Positions 15,814 to 24,862 of a DNA stretch of 25,129 nt are shown here, piece after piece. Source of the stretch: a virus; IMG/VR virus record IMGVR_UViG_3300025151_000280, positions 1 through 25,129 of that record; one strand, 5' to 3'. Made by a program: the position numbers and the translations under genes. Position 1 is the first letter of the stretch. Each line of letters starts with the position of its first letter. Under the pieces are notes generated by a model. The model saw only the letters and a program-made list of their open reading frames with translations. It was not told the origin of the DNA and did no database searches.

Positions 15814-16050
15814 ATGCCAGGAACTAGTGCACCAACTGCACCGACAGTAACTGTCATGTCCTTTCACAATGGTGGAAGGCTTAGGGACATGCAAGGGAAT
15901 ACCCCATCTGAGTTAGCTCAGACTATGGATATCTCTCTTGATGGTGTCGCTATATACGTAGATGATGCTGAAGCCAAGGCTTCTACACCGTTACGAGCTG
16001 GACAAGTTGTTTCTTTCCAAAAGAGCAAAGTGTCATCAGGTAGCAAGTAA
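15814..16050 (+). CDS. Ubiquitin-like beta-grasp protein (Ubl)
   Basis: 78 residues with an acggaggt site ahead of the ATG. After a flexible Ala/Pro/Thr head, VTVMSFHNGGRLRDM looks like the first beta hairpin, NTPSELAQTMDI the helix, and DGVAIYVDDAEA plus STPLRAGQVVSFQKSKVSSG the last strands. The closing segment follows the MoaD/ThiS/ubiquitin pattern 'T.L..G..V.f......G'. The C-terminus is SSGSK, so G76 is followed by two residues; conjugation through Gly would first need removal of Ser-Lys, a job for the JAB peptidase encoded nearby. Lysine acceptors K70, K72 and K78 are present. It opens the cassette with the same order as plasmid PRTRC modules. The fold is inferred from pattern and context rather than strong similarity; an unrelated small protein remains possible. 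Confidence 0.62.
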   Translation: MPGTSAPTAPTVTVMSFHNGGRLRDMQGNTPSELAQTMDISLDGVAIYVDDAEAKASTPLRAGQVVSFQKSKVSSGSK

Positions 16051-16168: not shown

Positions 16169-17938
16169 ATGCTGTATTTTAAAAGTATATTGCCTCCAAG
16201 GATAGCTGACGTTGTATCATGTAACAATATTGCAATAGATACTAAAAGCGTTTCTTATGAGAATCGTATTAAAACGTTTTTCTTAAGAGTCTTTGGAAAA
16301 GATAAAGGCTTTATTGAAGATGAGGCATACTGGTCACTACTATGGAAAATGTTAAGTGACCCTAACAATCGTTATGGCATAGTTGCTATTGATGGATATT
16401 CTGATGATCCATTGGGCAAAGAAGACTATGCTTTAATATTAAATATGAAAGAACCTAGATTACGTGCTAGAAACATACATAATCTGGGTACTATATATAT
16501 GAAGTTTGATACTGATGGTAAAACATCGTATTACAATTCAACTACAGATTACTTTGATTTTTTAAATCAAGTACCTGCAAGACATCCTCATATATCAAAT
16601 GGAGAACCTTGTCTAGGTAATTATTCTACTAGACTAAGTAAATCTCAATATGAAGGTAATCCGCTTATGTGGTTAAAAGACATAAATCAATTCTTAAACA
16701 CCTGGAATGCTAATTCTGCGTATTATAACCTTAATACCACTCCAGAGAAAATGATATTTTATCCACGAAATATTAAACTTAAACCAAGAGAAATGTCTAG
16801 TTATAAGTATTTTGGCATTCTTAATAGTGTACAAAGCGATCATCGAACTTTTGCACTAGAGGCTTTAAGAGATGAGCTTATATGGAAAGTAAAATCAACA
16901 GATAGAAGGTCAGAGTTTGCAGTAGCTGGATTTGTAGCATCATTGTGTGGTGATATGTATGATAAATTTGCAGGGAACAGTACTGATGTTTATAAAAATA
17001 GTAAACATGCAGAATATATTGAAGACTTTAGAATCAATACGGGTAAAGTTTCTAGATTAGATAGTATCGGATGGGATATAATTAATACAGGAATAAACGT
17101 ACAAAATGAACAGCCTAGAATGATAGTAAGGTCGGATAATGGTTATATAAAGTTTGTTCAACTTAGCAGTGCTTATCTTAATTATCTTACTAGCACTTAT
17201 TTTGCTGAAGCTCGTTCTGCAATGAAATCAATGGGTTATACAATAGATTATATTATTAAAAGCCCAATTGCTGCAACAAACATACAAAAATACATAATAG
17301 AGATAGCACCTATTATATTAGAGAAATATGTAAAAGAGTATGTACCGATTATTATTGAGCAAAATAAAGTTCTAGCGGATTTAACTGTTAAAAATAAAAC
17401 AAAACGCAGATTAACATGTCATAATCCAGAGATTTATGATGCTGATTTAAATCCAGATACAGTTCATGCAATAGAAACCATATTAAAAGATTATTTTGAT
17501 CATTACAATAATATCAAAAGAAATCTTAAAAGAACATTCAAAAGTATTCTAGATGAGAAATTTTCATCTCTTGACGTTGATGCAATATACGATAAAAAGA
17601 CTGAAGAAGTTTTTGAGGTTAATGCATATCCAAAAGCATATGGAAGACCAGGTTCTTTTGATAATGTAGGTTATTACATGCAACATCAAGGTATTTATGA
17701 TGACGATAGATATAAAAAGCATCTTAAAACATTAGGTATAGAACAATATCCTAAAACGTTTAAAGAACTTATTGTCACTTATGAAAATCTTAAACATAAA
17801 GTACATGTAGAAATGTTAACTGCAAAGCAAGAAACACTAAACAAACAAATAATAAAAGAAGGAGGTATGTTGCATTATGGAAGTAAAGCTAATAATACCG
17901 AAGAAGATAGCACACAAGTACCGCTATCTTTTGACTAG
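16169..17938 (+). CDS. Large protein with E2-like ubiquitin-conjugating domain
   Basis: 589 residues with an aaaggag site. Residues about 50-180 carry the E2-like signature: strands ending in LGTIYMKFDT, a PARHPHISNGEPCLGNY segment and helices MWLKDINQFLNTW. In E2 enzymes 'HPnI..~G.iCL' places the catalytic cysteine, so C148 is the predicted thioester site and H139-P140-H141 the conserved turn. Prokaryotic E2-like families, including PRTRC protein B, share this 'HPH...CLG' form. The remaining 400 residues are unusual: a helical, Lys/Tyr/Ile-rich region with segments such as TYFAEARSAMKSMGYTIDYI and YYMQHQGIYDDDRYKKHLKT and no recognised domain. They may select substrates, in place of an E3. 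The gene overlaps the JAB gene by 62 nt. It would pass activated Ubl from the E1 to targets. Confidence 0.75.
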   Translation: MLYFKSILPPRIADVVSCNNIAIDTKSVSYENRIKTFFLRVFGKDKGFIEDEAYWSLLWKMLSDPNNRYGIVAIDGYSDDPLGKEDYALILNMKEPRLRARNIHNLGTIYMKFDTDGKTSYYNSTTDYFDFLNQVPARHPHISNGEPCLGNYSTRLSKSQYEGNPLMWLKDINQFLNTWNANSAYYNLNTTPEKMIFYPRNIKLKPREMSSYKYFGILNSVQSDHRTFALEALRDELIWKVKSTDRRSEFAVAGFVASLCGDMYDKFAGNSTDVYKNSKHAEYIEDFRINTGKVSRLDSIGWDIINTGINVQNEQPRMIVRSDNGYIKFVQLSSAYLNYLTSTYFAEARSAMKSMGYTIDYIIKSPIAATNIQKYIIEIAPIILEKYVKEYVPIIIEQNKVLADLTVKNKTKRRLTCHNPEIYDADLNPDTVHAIETILKDYFDHYNNIKRNLKRTFKSILDEKFSSLDVDAIYDKKTEEVFEVNAYPKAYGRPGSFDNVGYYMQHQGIYDDDRYKKHLKTLGIEQYPKTFKELIVTYENLKHKVHVEMLTAKQETLNKQIIKEGGMLHYGSKANNTEEDSTQVPLSFD

Positions 17939-18704
17939 ATTCAAAAACACAGAATGGTCAGGCCCAGCATTTTATCGTATTAAAACTAATGATAATGGGT
18001 TTCCAGAAGAGTTTAAAATAGTACATTTCCATCCATTAGACTTAGGTCATGGAACGGCTACTGATTTTGACGCTGGAGATGTGGCATCCATTCTTAAAGA
18101 AACTTATCAAAAGTATCCATCTCTAAAGCATTGCTATATGGGACTGATACACAGCCATCATACAATGGGTGCATTTCTGTCAAGTACAGATAAAGACACT
18201 ATATTAGAAATGGCTCCAACAGAAGGTTTCTACGCTAGTTTAGTCGTAGCAAGTCAAGGTAAAGCAACTGAAGCCTTTGGTTTTAGTTATGTAGATCAAT
18301 ATGGACAAGCACATGCTATGATAATTGACGAAGATAAAATTGATATACAACTACCAGAGTATAAAGTGGAAGATGACTGGATAGAGCAAGCAGATACAAT
18401 TGAAAAGAATAAACCAGTACCACTTAATAATGTTGGAAAACAAACTCAAATATGGCGTCATAATCAAAACACTCAAACAGCAACCGAAATACGTTTAGCT
18501 AAATATTCTAAATCTAAACAAAATAAGATAAGCAAAGTCTTAGATAAGTATGAAGATGGCAAGCTTAATGAAGTTGATGCAGAAGCTAAGCTAGAACGTT
18601 TAGGTTGTAATGAAGTAGACATAATATTCTTTATGGATGATGCAAGTAAAACTCAAGCGTATAACTATGGATATAGCTACGGAGGTTACTATGGAGGATA
18701 CTAG
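17877..18704 (+). CDS. JAB/JAMM-domain metallopeptidase
   Basis: 275 residues. The JAMM site is complete: E26 (TEWSGP) as general base and H92-S93-H94, seven residues, S102 and D105 (IHSHHTMGAFLSSTD), exactly HxH-x7-S-xx-D. Such enzymes cut isopeptide or peptide bonds after Gly of ubiquitin-like proteins and need Zn. Predicted jobs here are to remove Ser-Lys from the Ubl precursor and to release Ubl from targets. After the domain (about 1-155) come an acidic linker, a helical segment (NKISKVLDKYEDGKLNEVDA) resembling short SHOCT-type helices, and an aromatic tail (YNYGYSYGGYYGGY). The ATG lies 11 nt after ggagg, inside the E2-like gene. The start of the E1 gene overlaps its end by 14 nt. Confidence 0.9.
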   Translation: MEVKLIIPKKIAHKYRYLLTRFKNTEWSGPAFYRIKTNDNGFPEEFKIVHFHPLDLGHGTATDFDAGDVASILKETYQKYPSLKHCYMGLIHSHHTMGAFLSSTDKDTILEMAPTEGFYASLVVASQGKATEAFGFSYVDQYGQAHAMIIDEDKIDIQLPEYKVEDDWIEQADTIEKNKPVPLNNVGKQTQIWRHNQNTQTATEIRLAKYSKSKQNKISKVLDKYEDGKLNEVDAEAKLERLGCNEVDIIFFMDDASKTQAYNYGYSYGGYYGGY

Positions 18705-19356
18705 GTTCTTACGCAATAAAGACCTTATCCCTCAGGGTAAGCTTAACAAGATAGCTATTATAGGACTAGGAGGTATCGGCTCACAGCTGGTACCTCTATT
18801 GTCTATTATGGGTTTTAAAAATATTGTAGGTTATGACTACGATACACTTGAAGAACATAACTTGAGTACAACATTGTATCCTCAAACAGCTCTTGGGGTA
18901 AGCAAAGCTGAAATAGCAGGAAATACATCTAAACTATATGCTGTAAATCCTGATGGTATGAAGTTTCACAACGAACCATATACTGAAAAAAGCCCTGCTT
19001 TCCCAAAAATGATTGTTTGTACAGACAATATGGAATCAAGACTGGTAGCTTACAATAAATGGCTAGAACAACCTAATAGGCAACTATTTTTAGATTTGCG
19101 TATGGGTGCTATGGCTATGGAAATTGTTACAACAACTAAAGAACATGATAACTACTTAGATACCTGGGCTCCAACACACGAAATAGGTGAAGAGCCTTGT
19201 ACAATGAAGCATACTATCTTTACAGCTTCAATTGTAGGTGGATTAGGAGTTGATCAGGTCTTTAATGTTGTTGCAAAAAGAGCTTATTATCAGTATATTT
19301 GGTTAGGCTTAATGCCTCTACAAATACGAACAGACAACTTAGTAACTAAAGGATAA
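18691..19356 (+). CDS. E1/ThiF-family adenylating enzyme
   Basis: 221 residues from ATG 18691, chosen because acggaggt lies just upstream; a longer frame from 18637 lies within the JAB gene. The Rossmann start IAIIGLGGIGSQLV gives the ATP loop (G25-x-G27-G28-x-G30). Next come the acidic pair D49/D51 (YDYDTLEEHNL), VCTDNMESR with D112 and R117, and a candidate catalytic cysteine C160 in EEPCTMKHTIFTAS, close to the 'PCT' environment of E1 enzymes. The usual Arg after 'NL' is replaced (NLSTTLYP). It would adenylate the C-terminal Gly of the Ubl, form a thioester and hand it to the E2-like protein. The protein is short, with no separate Ub-fold domain, as in ThiF/MoeB and PRTRC ThiF. It ends 2 nt before the Sak4-like gene. 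Confidence 0.9.
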   Translation: MEDTRFLRNKDLIPQGKLNKIAIIGLGGIGSQLVPLLSIMGFKNIVGYDYDTLEEHNLSTTLYPQTALGVSKAEIAGNTSKLYAVNPDGMKFHNEPYTEKSPAFPKMIVCTDNMESRLVAYNKWLEQPNRQLFLDLRMGAMAMEIVTTTKEHDNYLDTWAPTHEIGEEPCTMKHTIFTASIVGGLGVDQVFNVVAKRAYYQYIWLGLMPLQIRTDNLVTKG

Positions 19357-19358
19357 TT

Positions 19359-20225
19359 ATGGACATTAAAGTAAGAAAAGTGTCTACTGATTGGTCTAAA
19401 TTGCCTCATGGGCTGACTTGGTATTTTATCGGTCAGCCCAAAACGGGCAAGACTACACAGGCTAGTAAGTGGAGCGATAAAGGTTCTAAAGGTGTATTAT
19501 TAATTGATACAGATTTAGGATCAGACTTTGTTAATGAAGCTAATACTGTTACAGTTACATCTTTAAATACTCCTACTAGACCTCAAATGGTTGATGGTAA
19601 GCAAGTAACTAAAGGTGGCAAACCTGTAATAGAAGCTGTCCCTCACGATGAGCGGGGGTATTACCATAGAACTGGTGATGAAACTGGTGAGCCAATGGAA
19701 GTATATTCTATGATAGAAGTATATTTCTGGCTTAAAGAAAACCTAAAATCCCTTCCATACGATACAATCGTTATCGATACTATAGACCACGTTAACAGAT
19801 GGATAGAAGCAGAAGTTTGTGACGAACGTGGACAAGCCGCTATGGGCGAAGGTGCATCATGGGGTGCAGACTGGGCTCAAGCAAGAAAGAAAAATCTTGA
19901 TATCGTCAAGAAATTTCAAACATTATGCAAGCAACTAGGTAGAAACCTAGTATTAATATCGCATGCAAAAACAACTGTCATAACAGATGGAAAAAGTCAG
20001 TTAGGGCCAGAGTTACCACGTGGTCTCTCTTATGCTTTAACTGCATCAGCAGATGTGATAGGGTACGCTACAGCTAGTAAAGAAGATGGAAAATTCTATG
20101 TTTCTTTTAAAGCTTATGATGAAAGAACTGTAGGCAGTAGGCTAAAGCCACTTGCTCAGAAAGTTCTTGATTTTGATTATGGTAGCGTAATGAATGAAAT
20201 CCTAAAATACAAAGAACAGGAGTAA
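19359..20225 (+). CDS. Sak4-like RecA-fold ATPase (single-strand annealing)
   Basis: 288 residues with an aaagga site. Walker A is GQPKTGKTT (25-33), followed by VLLIDTDLGSDFV, the AAA_24/Sak4 form in which the segment after the first Asp is short. Walker B is in YDTIVIDTIDHV (about 129-140), and LVLISHAKTT supplies the sensor-like strand. Sak4 proteins are single-domain RecA relatives that promote annealing with an SSB partner; the SSB-like gene follows 3 nt downstream. The protein probably repairs or recombines replicating phage DNA. It directly follows the E1 gene, so the Ubl cassette and the recombination module appear to be one transcript. Confidence 0.85.
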   Translation: MDIKVRKVSTDWSKLPHGLTWYFIGQPKTGKTTQASKWSDKGSKGVLLIDTDLGSDFVNEANTVTVTSLNTPTRPQMVDGKQVTKGGKPVIEAVPHDERGYYHRTGDETGEPMEVYSMIEVYFWLKENLKSLPYDTIVIDTIDHVNRWIEAEVCDERGQAAMGEGASWGADWAQARKKNLDIVKKFQTLCKQLGRNLVLISHAKTTVITDGKSQLGPELPRGLSYALTASADVIGYATASKEDGKFYVSFKAYDERTVGSRLKPLAQKVLDFDYGSVMNEILKYKEQE

Positions 20226-20228
20226 AAT

Positions 20229-20873
20229 ATGCCGTTTAGAGGTATGAATCCAGTAGCAGATGCTAAGCCAGAATTTACTGGTACACCAAACTGGCTTGGC
20301 TTTCAAGAAGTAGCTATGACTGACGTCTTAGATAGAACAAGTGAGTTCGAAAACTTAGATATGTTTGTTGAAATACATTTTAAGAATGGGAACTCAGAAT
20401 ATCCGTATAAATATGCTTTGCTAGGGACTTTTGATAAAGACCCGCAGGGTAATATTAGCGGAGATAGTGGTCTATTAAAGCGCATAGTCTATCTTTGCGA
20501 TGCTTTAGGATGGAAAGGTGGAGTTAATAAAGAAGGTGAATGGGTTGATGAAAACGATAAGAAAATCGATGACATCGCTGGTTACCTTAACCTTAACTTT
20601 ACTGCTGCTAACTACGGACTTAAAGGAGATGATGTTGATCATGAGAAATATTATATTTTTGTTTATAAGAAATTAAACAAGAAAGATAATAAAGCTTATA
20701 CAACTGTATGTCCTAAAATAGCCCAAAACGAAGATAGGTCAAAAGCTGATTTAGAAAGCTATGTTGACTGGATGAAGGCTAATAAGTACATCGTAGAACA
20801 CAATGAGAAAGCACCAGAAAATGATGTTTCCAATGGTACCGCTGCCAATGGATCACCATTTGACAAATTCTAG
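20229..20873 (+). CDS. Probable single-stranded-DNA-binding protein
   Basis: 214 residues, beta-rich, with an early segment MPFRGMNPVADAKPEFTGTP, a long strand set (MFVEIHFKNGNSEYPYKYAL) and a helical middle. The acidic C-terminal end finishes NGSPFDKF, similar in style to the acidic, aromatic tip of SSB proteins that recruits partners. I cannot point to a conserved OB motif, so the assignment rests on its position between a Sak4-like ATPase and a primase-helicase, its size and its tail. Its stop and the next GTG start share a base (TAGTG). Confidence 0.6.
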   Translation: MPFRGMNPVADAKPEFTGTPNWLGFQEVAMTDVLDRTSEFENLDMFVEIHFKNGNSEYPYKYALLGTFDKDPQGNISGDSGLLKRIVYLCDALGWKGGVNKEGEWVDENDKKIDDIAGYLNLNFTAANYGLKGDDVDHEKYYIFVYKKLNKKDNKAYTTVCPKIAQNEDRSKADLESYVDWMKANKYIVEHNEKAPENDVSNGTAANGSPFDKF

Positions 20874-22696
20874 TGCAACTCTATCACGAAATAGCAATAG
20901 GTAGCCCTCGTAACAGAGGGCTACTTATTCCAGAAGAACAAGTTATAGACGTTTTACTTAAAAAAGGTAGAAACGAAGCTGTATACAAAAGTCTATATTT
21001 ATATGACGAAGAAGGCAAAGAGTATCATAAAATTAAAAAGACATTTAAGGACTTTTTAGGCAAAAGATACATAAGAAATGTACTTATAGACATAGATAAA
21101 AGCCAAAATACAGATGATTATACACTTAATAAAACAAAAAGTGTATTGTTTGAATTAGAAGAACTTGGAGTACAGCAACGTTCTTACCAAATCTATTTTA
21201 GCGGAACTGGATATCATATAGAAATAAGTGAAGAAGTATTTAATTATCCTCAAGGGGATAATGACTTACCATTTATTGTAAAAGAAACAATGAATAATTT
21301 ATTCAGTGACATAGATTTAGCTGTATACAATAGAACGTCAATATATAGATGCGAAAATACTCTTAATCAAAAATCAAATCTATATAAAATACCATTAAGC
21401 CATGAGCAATTGCAAATATGCACAGCTCAGGATATAATGAAAAATGCACAAAGTCAATCAAGCATAGCATTAGATCCTATATGGGGAGATGGTGAATTAG
21501 AAGATAAGGTAATACGAGAAATACCGAAAGTAAGAATACTGCAATCAAATGCAGAACCTACCAATATAGTTCCATGTGTTCAAAAGATGTATAAACTTGG
21601 CCCCGAAGAAGGATCAAGAAATAATACTTTGATGCGAATAGCATCCCATTTCTTTAGACATGGAATACCAAGTGAAGCTGCAAAGGCTGCACTACTACAT
21701 TGGAACAACAATCAATTACAAGACAGTGTAATAATTAAAAAAGTAGAAGACACATATAGCGGTGGATATAAATACGGATGTAAAGATGTGTTAATGGAAA
21801 AACATTGTCAACCTAATTGTATTCATTACAAACGTAAAGATTATCTCGTAGATGTTAAGAGTAGTGACGAACTACAAACAGAGCTAGCATCACGGCTAGA
21901 AACAGATTTTTCTGGACGTGTTATAGATTTAGCTAAGTTATTTGGAGTAGAAGATAAAGACGCAACAATATATCCAGGTGAATTAGTAACTATATTTGGC
22001 TCTACAGGTGCTAATAAAACAGCTTTAGCACAAAACATAGTATTAGGGTACAATGCTGAAGACGATGAAATTAAAAGAGAAGCACAAGTACCTACACTAT
22101 TCTTATCATTAGAATTATCTGGATTTGTAATGCACAGACGAAATCTGCAGATAGTATCAGGGACGAGTAAAGATGAAGTTGTTAAAAACTATCAAAAATT
22201 ATATGAATATCACAAAGAAGAACTAAGTCATATAATTATGCAATCGGTAAGCCCTACAATACAACAAATACAAGAAAAGATAAAGCAATTACAGCCTAAA
22301 TGCGTTGTAATAGACTATATAGACCTAGTAGATGTTCCCTACAATAAACGTGGAGAATACGAAAAGCTAAACTATATCAGTCACAGCTTATCTAATATAG
22401 CGGTAAATGATGACATTATTATAATACAGATATCACAAGTATCTAGAGATTATTCTCGTAATCAAATAATGGACTTATATGCTGCTAAAGGTAGTGGTGC
22501 AATAGAAAACGCATCACGAAAGGTTATAGGTATTACTGGTTCATCAGAAACAGCAGATAAAAAGATGAGCATTTACAAAAATAGTGACGGTGATCTATTT
22601 GAAGTTGAACTACAATGGACACCATCATTCCGTTTAAAGAAAAAGCCTACCATGTATAGCCACGCACTTGGCGGTAGGTTTACAATCCAGGAGTAA
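20873..22696 (+). CDS. AEP primase-DnaB-type helicase fusion
   Basis: 607 residues from a GTG overlapping the preceding stop. The N-terminal primase is of the archaeo-eukaryotic type: D73 and D75 (NVLIDIDKSQN), the S110-H115 motif (FSGTGYHIEIS), D148 with R154 (DIDLAVYNRT) and the basic loop SNLYKIPL. A PriCT-like helical unit (SRNNTLMRIASHFFRHGIPS) and a Cys/His cluster (C303, C312, C316, H318; CKDVLMEKHCQPNCIHYK) follow. The C-terminal part (about 345-607) is a DnaB/RecA-type motor, with Walker A GSTGANKT (376-383), Walker B CVVIDYIDLV and the motif IIIIQISQVSRD. Walker A carries Asn where Gly is usual before Lys. The protein would prime and unwind DNA at the phage fork. Confidence 0.86.
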   Translation: MQLYHEIAIGSPRNRGLLIPEEQVIDVLLKKGRNEAVYKSLYLYDEEGKEYHKIKKTFKDFLGKRYIRNVLIDIDKSQNTDDYTLNKTKSVLFELEELGVQQRSYQIYFSGTGYHIEISEEVFNYPQGDNDLPFIVKETMNNLFSDIDLAVYNRTSIYRCENTLNQKSNLYKIPLSHEQLQICTAQDIMKNAQSQSSIALDPIWGDGELEDKVIREIPKVRILQSNAEPTNIVPCVQKMYKLGPEEGSRNNTLMRIASHFFRHGIPSEAAKAALLHWNNNQLQDSVIIKKVEDTYSGGYKYGCKDVLMEKHCQPNCIHYKRKDYLVDVKSSDELQTELASRLETDFSGRVIDLAKLFGVEDKDATIYPGELVTIFGSTGANKTALAQNIVLGYNAEDDEIKREAQVPTLFLSLELSGFVMHRRNLQIVSGTSKDEVVKNYQKLYEYHKEELSHIIMQSVSPTIQQIQEKIKQLQPKCVVIDYIDLVDVPYNKRGEYEKLNYISHSLSNIAVNDDIIIIQISQVSRDYSRNQIMDLYAAKGSGAIENASRKVIGITGSSETADKKMSIYKNSDGDLFEVELQWTPSFRLKKKPTMYSHALGGRFTIQE

Positions 22697-23376: not shown

Positions 23377-23817
23377 ATGAAGTATGATAAAGAAATGTTT
23401 AAAGAGGTGTTAGAGCCTCATCATCGTACTTATTGGAAGATTGCTTACACAAAGCTACAGAGGAAAATGCAAAGCCTCAAATCCTCCCTTAAGAAACGAT
23501 CCGAAGACAATAACGTATTATTTAAAATTGATATGGAAGAACTTCGGAAGATGTTTTATGAATCATACGGTAAAGGTTGTCGTTACTGTGATAAAAAAAT
23601 GACATTACGCAATATGGTATGTGATCATATTATACCTCTTGCTAAGAACGGTGACAGTACAGTAGACAATCTGCAGCTTATATGTAAGAGCTGCAATACT
23701 AGAAAAGGCCCATTAGATGAGAAAGATTTTATCGAACTTATGTTATGGGTAGAAACACTTAAAAATGAAACAAAAGAATATGTGCTAAGAAAATTAGCAA
23801 AAGGAGGACGTTACTAA
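23377..23817 (+). CDS. HNH endonuclease
   Basis: 146 residues with a classic HNH fold: CRYC (C68, C71), then VCDHIIPLAKNGD (D83, H84), VDNLQLIC (N98) and the second knuckle C103-C106-N107 (CKSCNTRKG). Two zinc cysteine pairs bracket the catalytic His, as in many phage and McrA-like HNH nucleases. The N-terminal 65 residues are helical and basic (KLQRKMQSLKSSLKKRS), likely for DNA contact. There is no ribosome site; the start codon abuts the base of element 6, so translation may be weak or regulated by unfolding. It may be a free-standing homing nuclease or may aid replication or packaging. Its stop overlaps the next gene (TAATG). Confidence 0.88.
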   Translation: MKYDKEMFKEVLEPHHRTYWKIAYTKLQRKMQSLKSSLKKRSEDNNVLFKIDMEELRKMFYESYGKGCRYCDKKMTLRNMVCDHIIPLAKNGDSTVDNLQLICKSCNTRKGPLDEKDFIELMLWVETLKNETKEYVLRKLAKGGRY

Positions 23818-24056: not shown

Positions 24057-24477
24057 TAACCATTATTTTATTGACGAAGAAACAGGTGAAGCTGAAAGTT
24101 ATAAAGACTATATAAAAGAACTACAAGGTGAGCATGCAAATTTAGAGTTAAAGAAAAAAAGAGGGTATAGAGAATATTGGGAAGGACAAGTTGATGGAGT
24201 TTGGTTTATATTTACTCCAAGTTTGTTAGGAGAAGTTCATAAAATAGAATATGTAGTTCCAGAAGACCCAACAGTCAAAGAAAAAATAAACAATAAAAAA
24301 TGGGCAAAAGCAGCCTATTGGCGTATTATAAATTCAGTTAAGTATGGTAGAAAATGGGAAAAGCATAGACCAACTTCATTTTTAAATGAAAAAGGTCGTC
24401 ATAAAATAAAATGGGATGATAAAAATCACATTTTAACAATTAAAAATGATTATGGAAAGATAAAAGATGAACAATAA
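24049..24477 (+). CDS. Unknown protein (142 aa)
   Basis: The start at ATG 24049 is preferred to GTG 24037 because a gagg site lies 6 nt ahead of it. It encodes 142 residues, helical then strand-like: MINNHYFIDEETGEAESYKD, YREYWEGQVDGVWFIFTPSL, and a basic, Trp-rich second half (KWAKAAYWRIINSVKYGRKW). There is no known motif or membrane segment. It overlaps both neighbours. The role is unknown; the basic half suggests nucleic-acid contact. Confidence 0.58.
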   Translation: MINNHYFIDEETGEAESYKDYIKELQGEHANLELKKKRGYREYWEGQVDGVWFIFTPSLLGEVHKIEYVVPEDPTVKEKINNKKWAKAAYWRIINSVKYGRKWEKHRPTSFLNEKGRHKIKWDDKNHILTIKNDYGKIKDEQ

Positions 24478-24862
24478 ACAAGTAATGAAAAATAAAATTA
24501 AGCATTTAGAGAATGCATTAATTGAAGCAGACTTTACATTCCAGGCAATGGAATTAAAAATGAGAGAACTGCAAGAAAAAATAAACAAATACAAAATCAC
24601 CGATGATCCAAAACATCTTATCCAGAACAATGACCTTATTATCGAGCTTATCCAAAAGAGATTAGACATTGGTGCACAAAGATACGGTCAAAACGTACCT
24701 ATACTACCAGAAGACGACATCACAAGGGACAATTTTTACGAAGCAGTTGAAGAAGCGCTAGATTTATGCGTATATTTAACTGCTTTTATGTTAAGATTGA
24801 TGAAAGAAAAAGAGAATTTAGAAATTGAAAGAAACAAATCTAAAAAAAATAGCACAAAATGA
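24467..24862 (+). CDS. All-alpha NTP pyrophosphohydrolase-like (MazG-like) protein
   Basis: 131 residues with a ggaaag site. The N-terminal 55 residues are a coiled coil (KIKHLENALIEADFTFQAME). The C-terminal part has RLDIGAQRYGQNVPILPEDD followed by NFYEAVEEALDLCVYLTAFM, matching phage MazG-like proteins where a 'yGq' helix precedes the E-xx-E-xx-D metal motif (EAVEEALD). Such enzymes split (d)NTPs to (d)NMP and pyrophosphate and can adjust nucleotide pools or host alarmones. Only one acidic helix is clear here, so activity is a prediction. Its end overlaps the next gene. Confidence 0.68.
   Translation: MNNKQVMKNKIKHLENALIEADFTFQAMELKMRELQEKINKYKITDDPKHLIQNNDLIIELIQKRLDIGAQRYGQNVPILPEDDITRDNFYEAVEEALDLCVYLTAFMLRLMKEKENLEIERNKSKKNSTK

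Follow-up and report, generated by a model that had tools for sequence, protein, structure and literature searches.

We find that a 589-aa open reading frame at positions 16169–17938 (+) of a 25,129-base virus record, the whole of which we call the window, very probably encodes the E2 enzyme of a Ubl cassette. The genes around it are arranged in the order Ubl, E2, JAB/JAMM protease, E1, followed by a Sak4-like gene and a primase/DnaB-like helicase gene. As judged from the sequence, the case is strong that this marine phage encodes a complete Ubl tagging system, with a tag, an activating enzyme, a conjugating enzyme, and a tag remover. The length of the conjugating enzyme is typical across a large group of phages. 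Our overall reading, to which we give an even chance, is that the phage would carry out a reversible Ubl conjugation that works at the host replisome.

The reading frame is open from its ATG start, and AAAAGGAGATACAT directly 5′ of it is a good ribosome-binding site; the strand opposite 16169–17938 has many stops and is without a long frame. A direct search of viral contigs and phage records with the 589-aa protein alone brought up no relative, and the protein gave no meaningful match in Pfam, PHROG, NCBIfam, or PADLOC and no sequence match in the PDB. With the E1 as the query, 30 marine contigs were found that carry the same genes in the same order. Alignment-based searches were also employed, where the best 80 of 215 matches and the best 80 of 179 matches were taken as loci, and the distinct marine loci with a cassette E1 number at least 73. 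Within the fetched DNA, all four genes (Ubl-E2-JAB-E1) are present in order at 45 of these 73 loci; at the remaining marine loci, one or more of the genes is absent from the stretch fetched or not picked up by HMM, and many of the stretches are incomplete. Downstream of the cassette, Sak4 is found at 66 and the primase-helicase at 62 of the 73 loci. A second branch, made up of crAss-like, Flavobacterium, and other Bacteroidota phages, carries E2-JAB-E1 in the same order. One sub-branch has a gap of ~630 bases between JAB and E1 with room for another gene (L089:3342-3972, and similarly L091, L098, and L099). A scan of prokaryote genomes with E1 patterns found no cellular copy of the cassette. 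In the open literature, which does not cover most subscription papers and preprints, we saw no description of such a cassette from marine or crAss-like phages.

The predicted active-site motif of the E2, HPHISNGEPCLG (16583–16618, +), contains the predicted catalytic Cys148 and is invariant in the alignment of relatives. In the first 208 residues, H139, P140, H141, C148, and G150 are the only residues that are invariant across 34 divergent relatives, and beyond the Cys neither a Glu nor a His is conserved in this alignment. The family motif is HPHI..GxPCLG, where the eukaryotic counterpart is HPN...CL, and it reads HPH or HSH rather than HPN. Among distinct sequences, the pattern H.H..C.G is present in 53 of 53 marine E2s and in 46 of 50 crAss-like and other E2s (99/103 overall). 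When the phage E2 profile was compared with one of three eukaryotic E2s, the single match (E 0.015) aligned HPHISN-GEPCLG of the phage E2 to HPNVYPSGTVCLS.

The AF2 model of residues 1–200 (16169–16768, +) has a pLDDT of 86.5. Foldseek alone gave no significant match to this model in the PDB and no E2. When VIA-align was run on Foldseek's candidates, the first 12 rows were UBC9 or UEV (TSG101/Vps23) domains with Z from 3.9 to 4.8, led by UBC9 (Z 4.8) and the TSG101 UEV, and lower rows contained GCN2-RWD, CdnG-E2, and Atg3. Nearly all of the upper rows belong to one superfold, though the Z scores, with a best of 4.8, are low. The Pfam Prok-E2 models matched none of the 34 family members at E 0.1. 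From the conservation, the fold prediction, and the profile alignment, we conclude that the open reading frame is a real gene for an E2-like enzyme, which would use thioester chemistry to conjugate the Ubl. A sequence-only reading of this DNA had placed an HPH...CLG segment in an E2 fold, with Cys148 as the active-site cysteine, and had stated that no E3 is encoded nearby. These points are borne out by the UBC-like model, by the position of the invariant residues (139–150), and by a scan of ten neighboring proteins in which no E3-like domain was seen. That reading of the E2 made no mention of the four-gene Ubl cassette around it or of the clamp-like motifs in its JAMM partner.

The phage enzyme departs from other E2s in several ways. 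HPN..G..CL of the eukaryotic E2s UBC9 and UBE2D aligns with HPH..G.PCLG, and the predicted fold is UBC-like, but the phage E2 has His for Asn, a 390-residue C-terminal extension, and no E3 in view. Iyer, Burroughs and Aravind described prokaryotic Ubl/E2/JAB/E1 operons, and in their group 6d the classical histidine is missing from the E2, which instead has a histidine after the Cys (PMC1779556). Unlike the group 6d enzyme, the phage E2 has HPH before the Cys and carries a long extension, and the genes here are on marine and crAss-like phages.

The enzyme had also been called unusually long, which is correct relative to the expected 150–250 residues but not within its own family. Distinct marine E2s are 415–731 aa long (n = 53, median 585) and distinct crAss-like and other E2s 277–695 aa (n = 50, median 394). 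Because the E2s of all relatives are long, a length of 589 aa is normal for this family. In the E2 of crAss-like cr106_1 (L032:3970-5274), residues 268–373 give a weak match to PADLOC Csx1 (E 1.6e-5). The C-terminal extension (residues 201–589; 16769–17938, +) is predicted to be mostly helical and is 14–24% identical to its relatives, versus 31–54% for the E2 domain. E1 and Sak4 are both above the E2 domain in identity (Sak4 mostly 76–96%), and in distant members the E2 domain alone is recognizable. The sequence-only reading assigned the extension to no recognized family, and we likewise found no relative by sequence or structure in the PDB and the profile libraries: residues 201–589 have no sequence relative in the PDB, Foldseek with the full-length model gave no significant PDB match, and VIA-align with that model matched common helical arrangements alone, at residues 370–468. 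The extension had been described as helical and rich in Lys and Tyr; it is 7.0% Tyr and 9.4% Lys, the latter only a little above the 7.3% of the E2 domain. The idea that the extension is an automodification platform is not supported because its lysines are not conserved, K542 being the sole invariant lysine in the family alignment. Since the extension is present in all relatives and is the fastest-evolving part, recognition of a substrate or partner fits better than a conserved modification platform, and a role in binding one or the other is plausible.

That the extension outpaces both the E2 domain and the neighboring proteins in its rate of change is also what would be expected of a host-facing part in counter-defense, where the E2 with its extension would tag, or the JAMM protease would untag, an immune protein of the host, for instance one from CBASS or Bil, and the fold matches include a CdnG-E2 structure. 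However, a full E1/E2/Ubl set exceeds what is needed if host tags were only to be removed, and we found nothing that points directly to an immune target. We consider counter-defense quite unlikely and keep to a phage conjugation system acting at the replisome.

Upstream of the E2, the Ubl gene (15814–16050, +), with the Shine-Dalgarno sequence ACGGAGG 5′ of it, encodes a single β-grasp domain of 78 aa with the C terminus ...KVSSG-SK. Ser75-Gly76 is invariant in 26 relatives. In family members, the Ser-Gly is followed by nothing, by one or two residues, or by a longer tail, as expected if a protease trims the Ubl. In Flavobacterium and Bacteroides phages (L033:3658-4527 and L034:3642-4325), a Ubl-like protein lies directly upstream of the E2, and its ...KSG runs on into a long helical-looking tail rather than one or two residues. 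The Ubl matches profiles of ThiS (2cu3, E 1.3e-4), the closest among Ubls, and SAMP2 (5lda, E 0.017), and Pfam ThiS is found in 5 of the 26 members. The E1 (18637–19356, +), whose true start may be a later ATG, is a ThiF-type adenylating enzyme that matches PF00899 above the cut-off (E 4e-11), with further matches to SAE2, UBA3, and UBA5. Its GxGGxGS nucleotide loop is conserved (GLGGIGS at residue 43), and its predicted catalytic C188, in EPCTMKHT, is invariant.

A Ubl closest to ThiS and an E1 that is a minimal ThiF-type protein would also suit a ThiS/MoaD-like sulfur-carrier relay, in which a thiocarboxylated Ubl would serve the thiolation of nucleobases or cofactors, with the E2-like protein as a scaffold or acceptor. 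ThiS and MoaD end in Gly-Gly, whereas the phage Ubl ends in Ser-Gly. Further against a relay, the HPH..C active site of the E2 and the JAMM protease are strictly co-conserved, and no sulfurtransferase domain was found in the ten proteins scanned. We regard the relay as very improbable, and we return to conjugation and its reversal.

The predicted Ubl processing and deconjugating enzyme is a JAB/JAMM protease of 275 aa (17877–18704, +). In a 15-member alignment, E26, H92, H94, S102, and D105 are invariant and make up the Glu plus HSHx7SxxD zinc site; the zinc motif in the window is HSHHTMGAFLSSTD (18150–18191, +), which is conserved in the JAB alignment. The Prok-JAB profile is found in 15 of 15 members with E down to 1.4e-4, the window protein being below the curated cut-off. 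The JAB gene overlaps both of its neighbors in different frames, the E2 by 62 bases (17877–17938) and the E1 by 68 bases (18637–18704). The E2/JAB overlap is preserved across divergent phages, and it makes both protein ends dual-coded.

The cassette resembles Bil in having Ubl, E2, JAMM DUB, and E1 in one operon and a Ubl with a C-terminal Gly. Its four components correspond one to one to those of BilA-B-C-D (Ubl, E2, DUB, E1; PMC11354881), and PADLOC BilD weakly matches the phage E1 (E 5.8e-4). A phage counterpart of Bil would put the Ubl on virion proteins, for instance those of competing phages, with no link to replication. Bil itself has two Ubl domains in BilA, a CEHH motif in BilB, and, as BilD, a pseudodimer that includes a Cys domain (PMC11354881). 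The CEHH motif, the two-Ubl BilA, and the BilD pseudodimer are not seen in the phage cassette, which instead is phage-borne and has an HPH..C E2, a single 78-aa Ubl, and a 239-aa E1, and its membership in Bil is not supported. A Bil counterpart also leaves the clamp-like motifs described below unexplained, and the cassette adjoins replication genes, not structural ones. We therefore think a Bil counterpart unlikely and continue with the reading that the cassette acts at the host replisome.

Past the cassette, the replication/recombination genes begin with the one for the Sak4-like ATPase (19359–20225, +; phrog_124, E 3e-25), and the primase/DnaB-like helicase is encoded at 20873–22696 (+; phrog_19, E 4.7e-29, and primase families). 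Nearly all relatives conserve, between the Sak4 and primase genes, a 214-aa protein of no known family (window 20229–20873). Farther downstream, two products resemble, by eye, an HNH endonuclease (window 23377–23817) and a nucleotide pyrophosphohydrolase of MazG type (24467–24862). We found no DnaN or PolA in 19 related phage records and no PolIII-alpha or PolB in 11; these records may be incomplete, so a clamp gene could have been missed. With a phage clamp and replicative polymerase not found, the phages are likely to use the host replicase.

The linker of the window's JAB contains a clamp-binding-like motif, QTQIW (18441–18455, +), whose Gln189 is invariant in the 15-member family alignment. 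Clamp-like motifs recur in JAB linkers (QTQIW, QVTLW, QTSLF, QLTLFD), and their position in the linker differs by lineage (QTRLF, QVKLF, QSNLF, QVNMF, QRTLW). They are also present in crAss-like and other distant phage JABs (KQLTLFDD, SQLSLWDL, EQTSLFED, RQAGLFDD), and no clear motif is present in the JABs of L095, L085, L033, and L084. The linker motifs resemble the β-clamp-binding consensus QL[S/D]LF (PMC3716654), and clamp-binding motifs occur at varying sites in clamp clients (PMC4549789). The pattern Q[^P].[LMI][FLW] is found in 10 of 22 JAB linkers at <60% identity versus 1.7 in shuffles, and in 6 of 13 at 50% identity versus 0.8, with 0 of 2000 shuffles as high in either case, though such tests overstate independence because related sequences share ancestry. 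When first letters of the motif are compared, the excess for Q is by far the largest, and the C-terminal parts of the JABs hold 24 motifs versus 1.3 expected. The control proteins E1, Sak4, primase, and Gam have no excess, and the excess for o214 is slight (reached in 22 of 300 shuffles).

A pre-set out-of-sample test on 39 new, mostly crAss-like JABs was weakly positive (10 motifs versus 5.6 expected, 90/2000), and a looser form of the motif in the same JABs gave 16 versus 9.7 (27/2000). With a small or polar central position, the counts are 7 of 15 versus 0.4 for marine JABs and 9 of 38 versus 2.1 for crAss-like and other JABs, a refinement that was taken from the literature consensus and made after the data were seen. 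The C-terminal tail of the E2 also contains a clamp-motif-like sequence, QVPLSF (17915–17932, +), which overlaps the JAB reading frame and is partly constrained; given the JAB and an open frame, its chance is roughly 2–33%, and crAss-like E2s are mostly without it. We dropped this tail as strong evidence for clamp binding and count it as weak support, because the JAB frame partly forces the sequence. From the linker sequences, we infer that the JAB linker may be a docking site for the β sliding clamp. Bacterial β-clamp clients include transposases and Pol V UmuC (PMC4549789, PMC3716654). The phage proteins share with them a short Q-x-x-L-F-like motif that lies in a flexible region and varies in position; they differ in that the candidate clients are a Ubl protease and perhaps an E2.

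In the mechanism that we propose, the JAMM protease would cut any tail off the Ubl so that it ends in Ser-Gly, and the E1 would adenylate the Ubl and hand it via Cys188 to Cys148 of the E2, which would move it onto a lysine of a protein. The JAMM enzyme could take the Ubl off again, which would make conjugation reversible. Because no E3 is encoded nearby, we propose that the 390-residue extension of the E2 would be the part that recognizes the substrate or partner. Docking on the host β sliding clamp would be through the linker of the JAMM enzyme, perhaps joined in the marine branch by the tail of the E2, and the Ubl would be placed on the clamp itself or on proteins bound to it, at the host replisome. 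No other single explanation accounts as well as a replisome role for the gene neighborhood, the clamp and polymerase not being found, and the motif enrichment, and we judge this part of the model to be at, or slightly short of, evenly balanced. In eukaryotes, the sliding clamp PCNA is ubiquitylated and SUMOylated. The likeness to the proposed Ubl conjugation at the clamp is a functional analogy only, with the phage side read from short motifs. The full picture is more tentative and somewhat less than evenly likely: a Ubl machine of marine and crAss-like phages that would dock on the host clamp and modify the replisome, with a fast-evolving extension in the place of an E3 and a parallel in PCNA.

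Among known bacterial Ubl conjugation systems, those to which a role has been assigned mostly defend against phages, so a Ubl cassette that is widespread in phages reverses the usual picture. The cassette gives a handle on crAss-like phage genes that are annotated merely as hypothetical, and the gut-phage branch on Bacteroides thetaiotaomicron (DAC15/DAC17) is a possible laboratory model. If the clamp link is true, Ubl modification at the replication clamp would also have arisen outside eukaryotes.
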